From: Bacteroidota bacterium
Lineage (GTDB): Bacteria; Bacteroidota; Bacteroidia; UBA7662
NCBI GenBank assembly: GCA_027485465.1
Contig: JAIXRA010000149.1
Location: 1-39,907, forward strand
Direction of reading: 5' to 3'
DNA length: 39,907 nucleotides
The notes under the pieces were generated by a model that worked only from the letters and a program-made list of their open reading frames with translations, was not told the DNA's origin and ran no database searches. Below are positions 11,259 to 18,199 of this stretch, piece by piece; within the stretch, counting starts at the first letter, position 1; every line of letters begins with the position of its first letter. A program made the position numbers and the translations under genes.

Positions 11259-12338
11259 TTAGCGGGGGGCCTTGCGATAGAGGTAGGCCGTTGCCAAACC
11301 AAAGAGGAGATTGGGTGTCCAAGCGGCTAACAACGGCGATAAATTTCCTTTGACGGCAAACGTGAGGCTAAATCGTTGCATAACAATAAACGCAAAACAA
11401 AGACCCAACCCCCAACCCAAGGCCGGTCCCATCCCTCCTCGTTTTTTTTGGGTGGATAGACTGAGTCCCATCATTGTAAAAATCAGGGCCGAAAAGGGAA
11501 TGGCAAGCCTTGAATAATGTTCCACCCAAAAGGCTTCGGTCGGTTCACTGCCTTTGCGTTCGAGTTCCCGAATCGTCGCCAATAACTCATGGCGATCCAA
11601 CAGAAAAGCATCGGCTGCCAACGAAGTGCCAAAGTCTTCGGGTTTGAAGCCTGTTTTTCGGAACAGGGTGTCGAATTGACTTACCTTCATTTGATTGTTT
11701 TTCCAAGATTTCTGGGTCACCTGGGTGAGCATCCAGCACTGGCAAGATGCTTTCCAAACCAGTCGTTCGGCGCTTAGACGGCTGATTAACTGTCCTCCAA
11801 CAAAGCGATCCATGGCCAATCGGTAACCCGTGCTATCACCGTGGGAATACGATTCCAAATAGACCAGGCGACCCGGAGCAGTCTGCAAGTGCCTGTGCCT
11901 GGTATGGCTGTATCCCGGATCCCGGAGGTATTGGCTTTCGAAACGGATTCGAGCTCGGTTGGAAGGGGGTAAAACGAAATTGCTTAACACGTAGTTGAGT
12001 CCGCCAATGAGTAGGGCAGCCCCCAAAAAAGGCCTGCTAATTCGGCCAAAGGACCAACCTGCATTGAGTAATGTTATGATCTCATTGCGCTGAGCCAAAC
12101 GCGCTCCCGTAAAAATGACAGCGATGAATACAAACAGGGGACTCAGCAAATTGGCGTAATAGGGTGTAAAGTGGACATAGTATTCATTCCAAACCTGGTA
12201 CACCCCCAATGAATGCTTCAAGAACCCGTCAAGTTTCTCCGTTAGGTCAAATACAATGGCAATCAATACAAACAGGCCGAGGGCTCCTGCATAATTGACC
12301 AGGTACATTCGCCCCAAATAGCGATCGATTTTTTTCAC
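11259..12338 (-). CDS. lptG: LptF/LptG-family permease (LPS export)
   Basis: A 359-residue inner-membrane protein of the YjgP/YjgQ family, the permease half of the LptB2FG exporter that moves lipopolysaccharide from the inner membrane to the Lpt bridge. It has three N-terminal helices (with the conserved RLAQRNEIITLLNAG coupling segment), a periplasmic beta-jellyroll region (about 125-265), and three C-terminal helices (PFSALIFTMMGLSLS onward). Whether it is LptF or LptG cannot be settled from sequence alone; the single-copy Bacteroidota style and the start MKKIDRYLGRMYL favour LptG. The start is GTG at 12338, 18 nt after the mtgA stop. Pairing with a peptidoglycan glycosyltransferase makes this an envelope-assembly operon. 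Confidence 0.9.
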   Translation of the reverse strand: MKKIDRYLGRMYLVNYAGALGLFVLIAIVFDLTEKLDGFLKHSLGVYQVWNEYYVHFTPYYANLLSPLFVFIAVIFTGARLAQRNEIITLLNAGWSFGRISRPFLGAALLIGGLNYVLSNFVLPPSNRARIRFESQYLRDPGYSHTRHRHLQTAPGRLVYLESYSHGDSTGYRLAMDRFVGGQLISRLSAERLVWKASCQCWMLTQVTQKSWKNNQMKVSQFDTLFRKTGFKPEDFGTSLAADAFLLDRHELLATIRELERKGSEPTEAFWVEHYSRLAIPFSALIFTMMGLSLSTQKKRGGMGPALGWGLGLCFAFIVMQRFSLTFAVKGNLSPLLAAWTPNLLFGLATAYLYRKAPR

Positions 12339-12356: not shown

Positions 12357-13034
12357 CTACTGGTCTATTTGGACAGGCCCTATTTGACGCATCAGTCGTT
12401 GAATTTTGGATGCCCTTCGTCGGAGGTAGGCCGTCGGTTGCGATGGATTGCGTTGGCGCGGATTGGGGAAGGCAGCGACCAAGAGGGCGGCTTCACGCTT
12501 GGTGAGCTGAGCCGCCGGCTTCTTGAAGTAATGCTGAGCCGCCGCCTCGGCCCCATAGATTCCCGGCCCCATCTCAATGCTGTTAAGGTAAACCTCCATA
12601 ATGCGCCGCTTGGGCCACAACCATTCGATGGTCAGGGTGAAATAAACCTCCAAGCCCTTGCGCAAATAATTCCGGGCTGGCCACAAAAAAACATTTTTGG
12701 CGGTTTGCTGCGAGATGGTCGATCCTCCAAGCTTTTGTTTCTTTCCGCTTTGATTCCGTCGATAGGCCTTTTGAATCGCGTCCAGGTCAAAGCCGTTATG
12801 GCTCATGAAGTGTTGGTCTTCGGCGGCAACGGCAGCCTGGACCAAATGAGGGGAAACCTCTTCGATAGGTACCCAATCCCTGTACCAACGATGGTCCTGG
12901 TCAGGTTGAGGCTCCTCCAACAAGCGCAAAACCATGAGAGGGGTCAGAGGGACCGGAATCCAACGGTAGAGAAGGGTAAGTCCCAGGGTACTCAACCACA
13001 AGACCAGCAGGAATCGAAGAATTTTCCCCAGCAT
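12357..13034 (-). CDS. mtgA: Monofunctional peptidoglycan transglycosylase
   Basis: A 225-residue GT51 enzyme with one N-terminal membrane anchor (residues ~5-24), which polymerises lipid II into glycan strands on the periplasmic face. The GT51 motifs are present in order: EDQHFMSHNGFD (catalytic Glu72), KLGGSTISQQTAKN, RKGLEVYFTLTIEWLWPKRRIMEVYLNSIEMG, and GAEAAAQHYFKK. The length is normal for MtgA, with no transpeptidase domain. It is the first gene of the leftward operon and has the best promoter in the window immediately in front of it. Confidence 0.95.
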   Translation of the reverse strand: MLGKILRFLLVLWLSTLGLTLLYRWIPVPLTPLMVLRLLEEPQPDQDHRWYRDWVPIEEVSPHLVQAAVAAEDQHFMSHNGFDLDAIQKAYRRNQSGKKQKLGGSTISQQTAKNVFLWPARNYLRKGLEVYFTLTIEWLWPKRRIMEVYLNSIEMGPGIYGAEAAAQHYFKKPAAQLTKREAALLVAAFPNPRQRNPSQPTAYLRRRASKIQRLMRQIGPVQIDQ

Positions 13035-13038
13035 GCAC

Positions 13039-13070
13039 CAAAATTAAGCCTCTTGGCCTCGGGTAGCAAA
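13039..13070 (-). promoter_or_regulatory. mtgA promoter with -33 and -7 elements; predicted leaderless
   Basis: On the minus strand TTTG (13070-13067), a 20-nt spacer and TAATTTTG (13046-13039) match the Bacteroidota -33/-7 promoter. Only 4 nt (GTGC) separate the octamer from the mtgA ATG, so transcription should begin at or beside the start codon. Confidence 0.65.
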
Positions 13071-13100: not shown

Positions 13101-13108
13101 TAGTTTAG
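13101..13108 (+). promoter_or_regulatory. Candidate -7 element of the peroxidase-crtW-TonB unit
   Basis: TAGTTTAG has one mismatch to TAnnTTTG and is also exactly 4 nt (CCCC) before its ATG at 13113. Confidence 0.35.
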
Positions 13109-13112
13109 CCCC

Positions 13113-13715
13113 ATGAGATTGTTTCACCGATGGATGAGGAAGCGCGCTTGGACCGTGTCTTTGGTAATTCTGGGTTCTTTAGGGCTGGCTTCTTATCTTT
13201 TTAGCTGCGTCCAAGCCGCCTCACCCCCCACCGCAACAATGAATTTTTATCAGTTAAAGGCCCAGGATCTCGAAGGTAAAACCATTTCTTTCGAGGCTTT
13301 TCGTGGCCGAAAGGTCTTATTGGTCAATACAGCTACCGGTTGCGGATTGGCTCCCCAATTGAAGGACCTGCAAAATCTTCAGAATCGTTACAAAGGACGG
13401 TTGCTCGTGGTTGGGATTCCAACCAATGATTTTATCGGGCAGGAGCCTCTGAGCGGGGCCCAAATCGGTGAACATTGCCTTCGCAATTACGGTGTTGAAT
13501 TTTTGATCCTGGCCAAAGGGACCCTCCGTGGGTCCAACAAGGATCCGGTGCTGGAATGGTTAACATCCAAGCAACTCAACGGTGCCTTTTCCACCCGAAT
13601 TTGGTGGAATTACCAGAAGTATCTGGTTGACGAAAAGGGGCGATTGGTCGATTGGTTTTTGCCTTGGACATCGCCGAATTCATCGCGTTTGATACGTCAA
13701 ATCGAAAAGCCTTGA
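13113..13715 (+). CDS. Membrane-attached glutathione/thioredoxin peroxidase
   Basis: A 200-residue protein of the GPx family. A basic start and hydrophobic segment (residues ~12-31) end in LFSC at Cys32, a loose lipobox, so it is either a lipoprotein or membrane-anchored. Catalytic residues are conserved: peroxidatic Cys77 in NTATGCG, Gln110 in GQEP, and Trp165-Asn166 in IWWNYQKYL. The family block FPCNQF reads IPTNDF, so the cysteine used as resolving residue in some members is replaced by Thr; another thiol partner may be needed. It likely reduces hydrogen or lipid peroxides in the cell envelope. It is translationally coupled (TTGA) to a carotenoid ketolase, which suggests joint protection from oxidative or light damage. 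Confidence 0.87.
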   Translation: MRLFHRWMRKRAWTVSLVILGSLGLASYLFSCVQAASPPTATMNFYQLKAQDLEGKTISFEAFRGRKVLLVNTATGCGLAPQLKDLQNLQNRYKGRLLVVGIPTNDFIGQEPLSGAQIGEHCLRNYGVEFLILAKGTLRGSNKDPVLEWLTSKQLNGAFSTRIWWNYQKYLVDEKGRLVDWFLPWTSPNSSRLIRQIEKP

Positions 13716-14491: not shown

Positions 14492-16973
14492 TTCGAAGCC
14501 TATTTGGGGCCTGATCCTGCTGCTATGGGTCCTCTTGGGAGGGGCCGCGCCAACAGCCTACGCCCAAAAGGGAAAAATCACCGGGAAGGTCCGGGATGCT
14601 TTATCCGGGCAACCCATTGGTTTTGCCAACGTGGTTTTGGTGGGTACAACGCGAGGGACGACCACCAACGAGCAGGGCGTTTACACCATTGATGGCTTGG
14701 ATCGTGGTTTTTACAATGTGACGATTTCTTTTCTCGGGTACAAGCCCAAGACTTTTTTTGAAATACAGGTCAGCGATGCCCGCGTTGCGCTTTTGGATGT
14801 TGAATTGGAGAGCGATAGCCGCTTGTTGCAGGCGGTCGAGGTGCAGTCTTCGGCTTTCTCAAGGACCGAGGAAAGCCCTCTCTCCTTGCGAAATATTGGA
14901 GTTGCTGAAATTCAACGCAATCCCGGGGGGAACCGGGACCTATCCAAAGCCATCCAATCCCTTCCTGGGGTCTCATCGGGGGTTAGTTTTCGAAACGACA
15001 TTGTAATCCGCGGGGGGGCTCCGAACGAAAATCGCTTTTTTTTGGATGGAGTTGAGGTCCCTGTCATCAATCACTTTGCAACCCAGGGGAGTTCCGGGGG
15101 GCCGGTCGGGATTATCAATGTCGACATGATTCGGGAGGTTGATTTTTACTCCGGGGCCTTTCCTGCCAACCGGGGGAATGCCCTCAGCTCGGTCTTTGAA
15201 TTTCGCCAAAAAGATGCCCGTACCGATCGGGCTGCTTTCCGATCCATCGTTGGCGCCAGCGATATCGGACTCATCGCCGAAGGCCCCTTGGGTCCCAAAA
15301 CATCCTACGTGGTTTCGGCCCGCCGAAGCTATTTACAGTTTTTGTTCTCCGCGATAGGACTCCCGTTCTTACCAACCTTTAATGGATTTCAGGCCAAAAT
15401 CAAACACCGGATTGATGATCGCAATGAAATTTATTTTGTGGGGTTGGGGGCCATCGATCAATTTCAATTGAACACATCCCTCAACCTCAGTTACGATCCG
15501 GCATTGAACCCCAAAGTAGATACGGAACTTGTTGATCAACAACGATATATATTGGGTTATTTGCCTGTGACGACCCAATGGAATTATACCAATGGTTTGG
15601 TTTACAAACATTTCGCAAAATCGGGTGTGATGACTTTTGTGCTGAGTCGGAATATGCTCAACAATGTTCAATACAAGCATCTCAATAACAACGAGGACAG
15701 CCTTCGACTCCAGGATTACGAGTCCCAAGAAAGCGACAATCGTTTTCGCTTTGAGCATCAGTTACGCAGCCGTTCGGGGCTCAAGGTATCCTACGGCCTC
15801 AGCCTGGAGCGTTCTCGTTATGCCGTCCGTAACGAGTCCAAGGAATTGGTGGCCGATAGTGCATCCGGGGCCGGGGCTGTGCAATTGGTGAGTCGCCGCT
15901 TTGAGTCGGAATTGCGATTTAACCGCATGGGTCTTTTTGGGCAGGTTTCCAAATCGTATTTTGGGAGTCTCTTGGTTACCAGTGCTGGGTTGCGCCTGGA
16001 TGCCTGCGATTGGGCGCCCTCCACTTCTCGCTTGTTCGAGCAGTTTTCGCCGAGGCTTTCGTTATCCTATAATTTTGCTCCCCGCTGGACCCTGAATGCC
16101 AACACCGGCATGTATTACCAACTGCCCGCTTATACCTTGTTGGGCTTCAAAGCATCCACCGACGGTGAATTCGTGAATCGTAACAACGGGCTTCGATTCA
16201 TGGGCAGCGATCATTGGGTGGCGGGTTTGGAATATTTTGGGGGCAAGACCTTTCGGGCGACCCTGGAGTCCTTTTACAAAGGCTATTCCAACGTGCCCGT
16301 TTTGCAAGATCGGGGGATTAGTTTGGCCAATTTGGGGGCCGATTTTGGGATTATCGGAAACGAGCCCGCTCGTTCTGAAGGTTCAGGTAAGACCTATGGC
16401 TTGGAACTGTTGTTGCAACAAAAACTTAACAAGGGTTTTTACGGTATTATGGCCTTGACCTGGGTCCGTTCGCTCTTTGAAAATCGGATTAGCAACGGCT
16501 TGCCCTCAGCCCCCACGCCCTCGGCCTGGGATAATCGCTGGTTGTTAACCCTGACAGGTGGCAAGATTTTTGCCAAAAACTGGGAGATTGGGATGAGGTA
16601 CCGCTACGTGGGAGGCACTCCGTTCACGCCTTTTGATTCGAGTTCCCTGCGCAAAGTCATTTGGGATCAGTTGGGTCGACCTTTCTTGGATTATAACCGC
16701 CTCAATGCCAACCGGAGCGGTGCGACCATGCAATTGGACATTCGGGTGGATCGCAAATGGGAATTCAAGGGCTGGGCCCTGAATCTCTACCTGGATATTC
16801 AAAACGCGTTGAATCAACAAACCCAAGGCCCAGCCTTCCTGGTAGCAGATCGGGATCGGGTGACAGGGGCCTTGGTGAGCGATCCCTCGGATCCCAGTCG
16901 TTACCGCGCTTCCAATATTCCCAATACAGCCGGTCAATTGCTGCCAACGGTGGGGGTCATTGTTGACTTTTAG
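14475..16973 (+). CDS. TonB-dependent outer-membrane receptor with CarboxypepD-like N-terminal domain
   Basis: An 832-residue outer-membrane protein. Signal peptide about 1-30 (ends APTAYAQ), a carboxypeptidase-regulatory-like domain about 33-115 (ITGKVRDALSGQPIGFANV ... TNEQGVYTIDGL), a plug domain about 125-240 (ALQ/SLPGV pattern, RNDIVIRGGAPNENRFFLDGVEVP), and a beta-barrel ending in aromatic Phe (VGVIVDF). This is the TonB-linked receptor type typical of Bacteroidota; the ligand is unknown. No SusD partner follows, so it is unlikely to be a classical Sus glycan system. The ATG at 14475 lies within the end of crtW (17-bp overlap), so it is probably cotranscribed. It overlaps the convergent HAD gene by 17 bp. 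Confidence 0.92.
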   Translation: MNRIPNSKPIWGLILLLWVLLGGAAPTAYAQKGKITGKVRDALSGQPIGFANVVLVGTTRGTTTNEQGVYTIDGLDRGFYNVTISFLGYKPKTFFEIQVSDARVALLDVELESDSRLLQAVEVQSSAFSRTEESPLSLRNIGVAEIQRNPGGNRDLSKAIQSLPGVSSGVSFRNDIVIRGGAPNENRFFLDGVEVPVINHFATQGSSGGPVGIINVDMIREVDFYSGAFPANRGNALSSVFEFRQKDARTDRAAFRSIVGASDIGLIAEGPLGPKTSYVVSARRSYLQFLFSAIGLPFLPTFNGFQAKIKHRIDDRNEIYFVGLGAIDQFQLNTSLNLSYDPALNPKVDTELVDQQRYILGYLPVTTQWNYTNGLVYKHFAKSGVMTFVLSRNMLNNVQYKHLNNNEDSLRLQDYESQESDNRFRFEHQLRSRSGLKVSYGLSLERSRYAVRNESKELVADSASGAGAVQLVSRRFESELRFNRMGLFGQVSKSYFGSLLVTSAGLRLDACDWAPSTSRLFEQFSPRLSLSYNFAPRWTLNANTGMYYQLPAYTLLGFKASTDGEFVNRNNGLRFMGSDHWVAGLEYFGGKTFRATLESFYKGYSNVPVLQDRGISLANLGADFGIIGNEPARSEGSGKTYGLELLLQQKLNKGFYGIMALTWVRSLFENRISNGLPSAPTPSAWDNRWLLTLTGGKIFAKNWEIGMRYRYVGGTPFTPFDSSSLRKVIWDQLGRPFLDYNRLNANRSGATMQLDIRVDRKWEFKGWALNLYLDIQNALNQQTQGPAFLVADRDRVTGALVSDPSDPSRYRASNIPNTAGQLLPTVGVIVDF

Positions 16974-17337
16974 GGGGGCGGTTCCAAGGCGAAAATCCTT
17001 GGGCCTCCTGAAGGGTTTCCTCCCAATTCCCTCGAAAGGTCAGGGCTCGATCGTCGATATAAATCTCGGCCATGGGTTTGCCAAAACCCCAGATACGATC
17101 GTAAGGTATCTTGTGTTCTTCCAGCCAAGTTTTCATAGCTAGTTCCTGATCTTTGAATTGTTCCTTGTGGTATAGTTTGTTACTGCGGGTCGAGTAGATG
17201 TAGATTTTCCATCCTTGGGCTTTCATGGCCTCCAGGGCTTCTCGGCTACCTGGTACCGGGGGGTCGTAGATACGGCCATCTTGCCAGCCTTGGCTGTAGC
17301 CGTGGAGTACGCCGTCAAAATCAATTGCAACTGTCAT
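16957..17337 (-). CDS. Small HAD-superfamily phosphatase
   Basis: A 126-residue cytosolic protein. HAD motif I is DFDGVL near the N-terminus, motif II is the Ser/Thr in YIYSTR, a conserved Lys follows (FGKP), and motif IV is IDDRA. There is no sizeable cap domain, so it belongs to the small capless HAD hydrolases often called 5'-nucleotidase-like; the true substrate is unknown. The ATG at 17337 is preferred over a longer frame to 17412 because it starts right at the first beta strand and leaves room for two divergent promoters. It stands alone on the minus strand between two plus-strand units. Confidence 0.8.
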   Translation of the reverse strand: MTVAIDFDGVLHGYSQGWQDGRIYDPPVPGSREALEAMKAQGWKIYIYSTRSNKLYHKEQFKDQELAMKTWLEEHKIPYDRIWGFGKPMAEIYIDDRALTFRGNWEETLQEAQGFSPWNRPPKSQQ

Positions 17338-17366
17338 GGGTTCGGTTTTTGGCGATGGTTTAGGCC

Positions 17367-17374
17367 CAAAAATA
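17367..17374 (-). promoter_or_regulatory. Candidate -7 element of the HAD gene
   Basis: The minus-strand octamer TATTTTTG matches TAnnTTTG perfectly and lies 29 nt upstream of the HAD ATG. No -33 TTTG is seen at a standard spacing. Confidence 0.5.
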
Positions 17375-17398
17375 GGGATTTTGGAGGGGTCTCGTCGG

Positions 17399-17406
17399 TA
17401 TCTTTG
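17399..17406 (+). promoter_or_regulatory. Candidate -7 element of the VIT1-type transporter gene; predicted leaderless
   Basis: TATCTTTG matches TAnnTTTG perfectly and is 4 nt (AAAC) before the ATG at 17411. A TTTG at 17380-17383 is 15 nt upstream, shorter than the usual spacer. Confidence 0.5.
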
Positions 17407-17410
17407 AAAC

Positions 17411-18199
17411 ATGAGCGAGCGCGTACCCCATGGCAGTTCTCATCCGCATCACCACGAATCGGTTTTGCACCGAACCGATAACGGAATGCCAACCTCCCTG
17501 TCCAAGTACATGGGTGAATTGGTCTACGGGGGTATCGACGGTTCGGTAACCACCTTCGCCGTGGTATCGGCCGCAGCGGGGGCCGGTTTGTCGACGGCCG
17601 TTATTTTGATCCTGGGTTTGGCCAATTTGGTTGCGGATGGTTTTGCCATGAGCGTGGGTGCCTATCTCAGCAAAAAAACCGAAAGGGATCATTACCGCAA
17701 ACAACGAGCGATTGAGGCCTGGGAGGTCGATCACCTTCCCGAAAAAGAAAGAGAGGAAATCCGCGAAATATACCAGGCCAAAGGCTTTGAAGGGGAACTG
17801 CTTGAACAAGTGGTGAATACCATCACCGCGGACAAGGAGCGCTGGATCGAAGTCATGATGAAGGAGGAATTGGAAATGATGGAAGACACCAGATCCCCCC
17901 TGGCCTGTGGTGCAGCGACCTTTGCTTCGTTTTTGATGGTCGGAACCATTCCCTTGTTGACGTTTGTGACCCATGCTTTATGGAACCCTTCCGAACTCCA
18001 TCAACCAGCTAACTTGTCCTTGTTTTGGGTGGCCTCGGCTTTGACTTCTGCAGGATTTCTAGGGATTGGTTGGCTCAAGAGCCGGGTTACCGCCCTGACC
18101 CCCTGGCGCAGCATGAGCGAAACCTTGATCCTTGGCTCTTTGGCTTCGGCCCTTTCCTTTGCGGCTGGTTTTGTCCTCGAAAAATGGCTGGGCACCTGA
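17411..18199 (+). CDS. VIT1/CCC1-family iron/manganese transporter
   Basis: A 262-residue membrane protein. The His-rich N-terminus (HGSSHPHHHESVLHR) could bind metal. The family core is clear: GELVYGGIDGSVTTFAVVSA in TM1, NLVADGFAMSVGAYLS in TM2, then a cytoplasmic Glu-rich helical metal-binding domain (EREEIREIYQAKGFEGE ... KEELEMMED), and three more helices to the C-terminus. Family members move Fe2+ or Mn2+ out of the cytosol, so it may relieve metal excess. It heads a long plus-strand run: the aminopeptidase ATG is 19 nt after its stop. Confidence 0.9.
   Translation: MSERVPHGSSHPHHHESVLHRTDNGMPTSLSKYMGELVYGGIDGSVTTFAVVSAAAGAGLSTAVILILGLANLVADGFAMSVGAYLSKKTERDHYRKQRAIEAWEVDHLPEKEREEIREIYQAKGFEGELLEQVVNTITADKERWIEVMMKEELEMMEDTRSPLACGAATFASFLMVGTIPLLTFVTHALWNPSELHQPANLSLFWVASALTSAGFLGIGWLKSRVTALTPWRSMSETLILGSLASALSFAAGFVLEKWLGT

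Follow-up and report, generated by a model that had tools for sequence, protein, structure and literature searches.

The mtgA gene of an uncultured member of the Bacteroidota (lineage UBA7662; contig JAIXRA010000149.1, from which the stretch of 39,907 nucleotides analysed here, ‘the window’, is taken) is probably transcribed, with a likelihood that we put at roughly 80%, as a leaderless mRNA from a promoter of the sigma-ABfr type; the start site, the absence of a leader and the mode of translation are features that we infer from the DNA sequence. According to this reading, the octamer TAATTTTG at positions 13046 to 13039 would act as the -7 element of a promoter for the primary sigma factor of the Bacteroidota (sigma-ABfr type), RNA polymerase would initiate about 4 nucleotides past the final G of the octamer, on the first base of the mtgA start codon, and the resulting mRNA (carrying mtgA and perhaps also the lptG-like gene) would begin with a 5'-terminal AUG, free of any leader, to which ribosomes would bind directly. 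A TTTG at -33 may assist, apparently without being generally required. In its genome (G000 hereafter), mtgA is one of about 30 genes with this 4-nucleotide arrangement; at mtgA itself the arrangement is restricted, within the genus, to one subclade, and in several relatives the nearest -7-like element lies further upstream of the gene.

The initial annotation had proposed a leaderless mtgA mRNA from a ‘full -33/-7’ promoter. The leaderless part stands as a prediction, and is backed by the spacing known from Flavobacterium (PMC6847099, PMC9723704), by a genome-wide excess of the 4-nucleotide distance, by an in-frame TAA, by a start-codon column common to the genus, and by the retention of the geometry in a relative (G005) whose spacer and 4-mer have changed. 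The ‘full -33/-7’ part is weak, for reasons given below.

Organization of the mtgA locus

The minus strand ahead of mtgA reads, from 13070 to 13032, TTTG-N20-TAATTTTG-GTGC-ATG, exactly as originally described. The TTTG (13067-13070), a weakly supported candidate for the -33 element, is kept in G004, G005 and G006 and lies at the distance, about 20 nucleotides upstream of the -7 element, that is expected of a primary-sigma promoter. It is followed by the 20-nucleotide spacer (13047-13066; identical in G005 at 14 of 20 bases, counted by eye) and by TAATTTTG (13039-13046), which agrees with the TAnnTTTG consensus of such promoters and with its F. johnsoniae form TAHHTTTG (PMC6847099). The tetranucleotide GTGC (13035-13038; AATC in G005) and the ATG (13032-13034) complete the arrangement. 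Because the element spans -12 to -5 in Flavobacterium, and because GTGC fills -4 to -1, the predicted +1 is the A at 13034, so that the 4-nucleotide gap has the geometry of a leaderless mRNA, with +1 on the start codon.

The -7 element contains a TAA (-12 to -10) that is in frame with the mtgA ATG, with no start codon in the interval; an upstream start for mtgA is therefore impossible. The same ATG column is common to all nine genus members, which supports its assignment as the start codon. No further exact TANNTTTG was found on the same strand within 230 nucleotides upstream of mtgA.

The gene (12357-13034, minus strand) encodes a monofunctional biosynthetic peptidoglycan transglycosylase of 225 residues, which scores 264.5 bits against TIGR02070 (curated cut-off 182.65) and is thereby identified as MtgA. 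An LptG/LptF-like permease gene (11259-12338, minus strand) begins 18 nucleotides downstream and is perhaps co-transcribed with it; its product matches TIGR04408 with an E-value of 2.7e-53 and 180.8 bits, under the curated cut-off of 240. Divergent from mtgA, with 78 nucleotides between the two start codons, is a glutathione-peroxidase-like gene (13113-13715, plus strand; NF007900, E-value 1.4e-28, below cut-off). An equally divergent homologue of the latter is present in 15 of the 15 family genomes that contain mtgA, and the intergenic regions are therefore orthologous within the family.

Promoters and leaderless mRNAs described in the phylum

The Bacteroidota, which to our knowledge lack Shine-Dalgarno sequences, have mostly been treated as organisms with leadered mRNAs and A/T-rich start contexts. 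Leaderless mRNAs at a level of a few per cent are already known in the phylum, to which mtgA adds a further, predicted case.

For F. johnsoniae, RNA-seq frequently places the predicted start 4 or 5 nucleotides past TAHHTTTG (the element occupying -12 to -5), just those cases were accepted by the authors as probable promoters, the -33 element is barely visible, and leaders of more than 10 nucleotides precede 87% of the predicted transcripts (PMC6847099). The F. psychrophilum motif likewise spans -12 to -5 of start sites, and 5.5% of the mRNAs of this species are leaderless (PMC9723704); in Bacteroides thetaiotaomicron, 5' UTRs shorter than 10 nucleotides make up about 3.7% of the total (PMC7366714). 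Leaderless mRNA in Flavobacteriia is mentioned elsewhere (PMC10783764), an A/T-rich bias near -20 to -10 has led to leaderless mRNAs being suggested for Bacteroidetes among others (PMC5397173), and a study of gene starts assigned A/T-rich, non-SD sites to the FCB group (PMC9581028). In a survey of 953 bacterial genomes, a single one of the 37 Bacteroidetes/Chlorobi had leaderless genes; its authors acknowledged the focus on Pribnow-like promoters as a limitation, but thought it unlikely that many genes had been missed (PMC3160421).

The predicted mtgA transcript resembles the leaderless mRNAs of B. thetaiotaomicron and F. psychrophilum (PMC7366714, PMC9723704) in phylum, in -7 consensus, in predicted geometry and in the few per cent of genes concerned; those were obtained from start-site maps, whereas the present cases are predicted, in an uncultured lineage, and are compared between relatives. 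In comparison with the sigma-ABfr promoter (TTTG / TAnnTTTG) of B. fragilis and F. johnsoniae (PMC6847099), mtgA has the exact -7 octamer and a TTTG at N20, but no -33 element stands out clearly in this lineage, which matches what was reported for F. johnsoniae. In Actinobacteria and Deinococcus-Thermus, TA-led leaderless genes (PMC3160421) likewise have a promoter element some 12 bp ahead of the start codon, although the sigma consensus differs. Among the matches listed (including PMC3155529), no study comparing leaderless geometry gene by gene within the Bacteroidota was found, which is weak evidence of absence, most subscription journals lying outside the scope of the search; the listing likewise contained nothing related to a leaderless mtgA.

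The distance between the -7 element and the start codon

At a distance of 4 nucleotides from an ATG, the -7 element exceeds chance genome-wide. TAHHTTTG-N4-ATG occurs 33 times in the whole of G000 and its reversed pattern not at all; gaps of 3, 5 and 14 nucleotides give 15, 16 and 11 sites, with 1, 7 and 3 in the respective reversed controls. When all 33 sites were examined, 29 of the ATGs were found to open at least 60 codons (some of these frames extending past the end of the sequence piece examined) and 4 fewer. Stretches were also sampled from G000 (329,664 bases, including the window) and from G017, a genome of the same order (400,000 bases). In these, ATGs opening at least 80 codons were found at the 4-nucleotide gap 7 times in G000 and 20 times in G017, where average densities predict 0.44 and 0.85. 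True leadered promoters also add to the counts at different gaps, and a fairer yardstick is therefore the best-populated of the remaining gaps up to 60 nucleotides, with 4 in G000 and 7 in G017. Similarly, the first ATG of frames of at least 150 residues (unfiltered for real genes) follows the element by 4 nucleotides in 5 of 258 cases in sampled G000 and 18 of 314 in sampled G017. We tentatively take several of the 4-nucleotide genes of G000, from their first residues, to encode adenylate kinase, RuvB, MurC, phosphoglucosamine mutase and RarA.

Alternative start codons were counted in the same way. GTG starts opening at least 80 codons occupy the 4-nucleotide position 5 times in G017 (0.5 expected) and once in G000 (0.34 expected), while TTG starts do so in neither (1.4 and 0.8 expected, respectively), the TTG numbers being very small. 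The five GTG-start frames of G017, each exactly 4 nucleotides after TAHHTTTG (stretches L072, L075, L079, L083 and L087), are predicted to give leaderless GUG mRNAs; two of them presumably encode RecN and RibD.

Across 40 genomes searched, the 4-nucleotide count exceeds the 3-, 5- and 14-nucleotide counts in 29, and exceeds the 14-nucleotide count after Bonferroni correction in 17, while 11 (including G001, G002 and G007 of the window's own genus) have no peak at 4 nucleotides; the feature thus depends on lineage. Twenty-one genomes of the order contain 17 to 108 exact 4-nucleotide sites each, before subtraction of a 14-nucleotide-gap background of 6 to 37.

These counts bear on a variant of the preferred reading, compatible with it, in which transcription would begin inside GTGC, 1 to 3 nucleotides ahead of the ATG, or at more than one position, so that mtgA would have a leader of 1 to 3 nucleotides. 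The variant is the strongest of the alternatives and deserves to be taken seriously as a minority possibility: the spacing reported for F. johnsoniae has a spread (PMC6847099), and in the whole genomes of five members of the genus (G001, G002, G003, G007 and G008) gaps of 3 nucleotides are as common as gaps of 4 (124 and 121), so that the spacing is not absolutely fixed. In the window's own subclade (G000, G004, G005 and G006), by contrast, gaps of 4 nucleotides (117) clearly outnumber those of 3 (51) and 5 (58). The contrast within the genus perhaps corresponds to a one-base difference in the choice of start site.

The proposed mtgA promoter in relatives

The 4-nucleotide geometry is found at mtgA in four of nine genus members (G000, G004, G005 and G006) and is missing in the other five, so that the expectation that relatives would keep the spacing was borne out in part of the genus and failed in the rest. 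G004 and G006 are almost identical to G000 in this region. G005, whose MtgA is 87% identical, retains TTTG-N20-TAATTTTG-N4-ATG: over a stretch of 42 bases, 12 of 12 element bases are kept and 21 of the 30 others (p = 0.03), and of the 9 changed bases three fall in the 4-mer before the ATG. The five remaining genus members share the start-codon column and have no TAHHTTTG at the ATG; common to all five is CATCTTTG, one mismatch from the consensus, which in four lies 50 to 57 nucleotides before the ATG and in G008 lies 33 nucleotides before an ATG that the scan had chosen 24 nucleotides further upstream (by arithmetic, 57 from the expected ATG).

Beyond the genus, the sister genus g2 has TATTTTTG at 26 nucleotides from the mtgA ATG in all three genomes with mtgA, g4 has CATTTTTG (one mismatch) at 4 nucleotides in two of two, and another family of the order has TACCTTTG at 4 (G019) or 5 nucleotides (G017 and G020). 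The nearest -7-like element has thus shifted relative to the mtgA start codon within the family.

A wider scan covered 127 mtgA loci, with ATGs up to 30 codons from the expected start and an exact octamer, and with loci lacking such an ATG or such an octamer counted as misses. The exact 4-nucleotide form was found at 5 loci (G000, G004, G005, G006 and G019, all in the window's order) and the 5-nucleotide form at 4 (G017, G020, L179 and L199, in the last two of which the ATG precedes the expected start by 15 codons); the notion that mtgA is leaderless throughout the Bacteroidia was rejected on these counts. Of 152 matching genomes, 22 with newly given loci joined the scan. Excluded beforehand were L001 (the window's own DNA), L029 (partial), L030 and L031 (not mtgA), L152 and L153 (which lie on the contigs of G004 and G003, respectively, and are the only two loci for which overlap between named and unnamed records of one species was checked), repeat genes and larger PBPs. 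Genes for MtgA of the Bacteroidota type were also encountered in records titled Mycobacterium sp. KBS0706 (L201) and Candidatus Nitrotoga sp. CP45 (L162), where they perhaps reflect contamination or misbinning.

It might be argued that TAATTTTG is a chance match and no promoter at all, and that mtgA is leadered and transcribed from an unrecognised promoter further upstream. The motif by itself, regardless of its distance to an ATG, is indeed no rarer than chance: TTTG-N19..21-TANNTTTG occurs exactly once in the window where 0.42 are expected (at least once in 34 of 100 shuffles), and TANNTTTG alone 20 times where 17.1 are expected. The CATCTTTG of the five other genus members, which would give a leader, points in the same direction. 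Against this, few of the 29 gene-opening sites of G000 should be chance, judging from the 4 short frames among 33 and from the sample, in which about 27% of ATGs open 80 codons; the elements are retained in G005 although their flanks have changed; and an mtgA leader longer than about 78 nucleotides would be antisense to the divergently transcribed neighbour. A chance match is considered unlikely. Least probable is that TAATTTTG serves as an A/T-rich translation signal (of the ribosomal protein S1 or Kozak-like type) in a leadered mRNA, since, although A/T- or U-rich upstream signals have been reported or suggested for Bacteroidetes (PMC3160421, PMC5397173), the signal at mtgA is the exact promoter octamer at the exact distance, and the octamer in G017 also clusters 15 to 19 nucleotides from starts, as expected of leadered promoters.

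Other genes with the same geometry

Further support for a functional 4-nucleotide distance comes from the remaining genes that display it. Of the 29 gene-opening sites of G000, 17 share their geometry with a homologue among the 19 such sites of G005 (a genome 77% complete), and 9 with a homologue among the 22 of G003; independence would predict about 0.6 for such shared sets, assuming 1000 shared genes, although common descent inflates the sharing that is observed. In the G000-G003 pairs the octamer class and the spacing are kept while ungapped identity of the upstream 30 bases averages 0.51, a figure lowered by insertions in some pairs (L094 and L337); one pair (L095) aligns only from residues 50 and 42 onward. 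Three pairs (L098, L102 and L112, presumably glmM-, cysteine-synthase/CBS- and sucB-like) have unalike flanks, with upstream identities of 9 to 11 of 30. The persistence of the geometry despite diverged flanks would favour selection on the spacing. In comparisons with 30 of the 64 sites of G013 and with the 22 sites of the sampled G017 stretches, one G000 gene (L107) shares the geometry with G013 and one G013 gene shares it with G017. Against the leaderless reading, 7 of 29 four-nucleotide sites in G003 open no frame of 60 codons.

The candidate -33 element and the base at -1

The claim of a ‘full -33/-7’ promoter fared less well than that of a leaderless mRNA. A TTTG lies 18 to 22 nucleotides upstream of TAHHTTTG 5 times where 4.8 are expected in sampled G000 (103 motifs) and 16 times where 12 are expected in sampled G017 (243 motifs), and no T/G signal around -33 stands out in the aligned sites of these stretches. 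Because TTTG is thus near expectation, the -33/-7 pair is not a main support for a leaderless mtgA. Among 30 four-nucleotide sites examined, 5 have a TTTG at this distance, where the sampled rate predicts about 1.4, and at two of these no gene is opened; this notwithstanding, a -33 TTTG as a general ‘full promoter’ feature was rejected as not supported by the sampled stretches.

A C at -1, as found at mtgA, was likewise rejected as an initiator signature of leaderless starts. It precedes 3 of 5 four-nucleotide starts in G000 and 10 of 18 in G017, at frequencies similar to those of leadered starts (12 of 24 and 17 of 44) and of starts without the motif (91 of 229 and 97 of 251), and is thus not specific to leaderless-type starts.

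Significance beyond mtgA

The consequence for mtgA alone is small. A broader proposition, for and against which we hold the odds to be about even on the present comparisons, is that each genome of the order has some tens of leaderless genes by virtue of the exact 4-nucleotide gap, GUG starts included, and that selection would hold this gap gene by gene while the flanks turn over (as at L098, L102 and L112). If this is true, a phylum mostly described as leadered and free of Shine-Dalgarno sequences would hold a heritable set of leaderless genes, and the rule TAHHTTTG-N4-ATG/GTG, often kept by relatives, would predict leaderless genes from the genome alone, making both start-codon annotation and leaderless translation testable in the Bacteroidota.

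Other candidate leaderless starts in the window

The 78-nucleotide intergenic region may drive two leaderless mRNAs, one for mtgA and one for the glutathione-peroxidase-like gene. Ahead of the latter, positions 13101 to 13115 of the plus strand read TAGTTTAG-CCCC-ATG, in which TAGTTTAG (13101-13108) is one mismatch from the -7 consensus and 4 nucleotides before the ATG; its designation as a promoter element is speculative. The counterpart of TAGTTTAG in G005 is TAATTTAG, followed by a GTG at 4 nucleotides and by ATGs at 7 and 10 nucleotides.

It had also been stated that, in the window, both elements occur together at standard spacing nowhere but ahead of mtgA. This holds literally, the match before mtgA being the sole exact TTTG-N19..21-TANNTTTG, but a second leaderless-type start, TATCTTTG-AAAC-ATG (17399-17413, plus strand), precedes a VIT-family gene (17411-18199), with no TTTG at 18 to 22 nucleotides upstream of TATCTTTG. 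These 15 bases are identical in G005. A divergent frame (16957-17412, minus strand), with a HAD hydrolase match slightly under the Pfam cut-off, has its own first ATG overlapping the VIT-family ATG, the two forming CATG.
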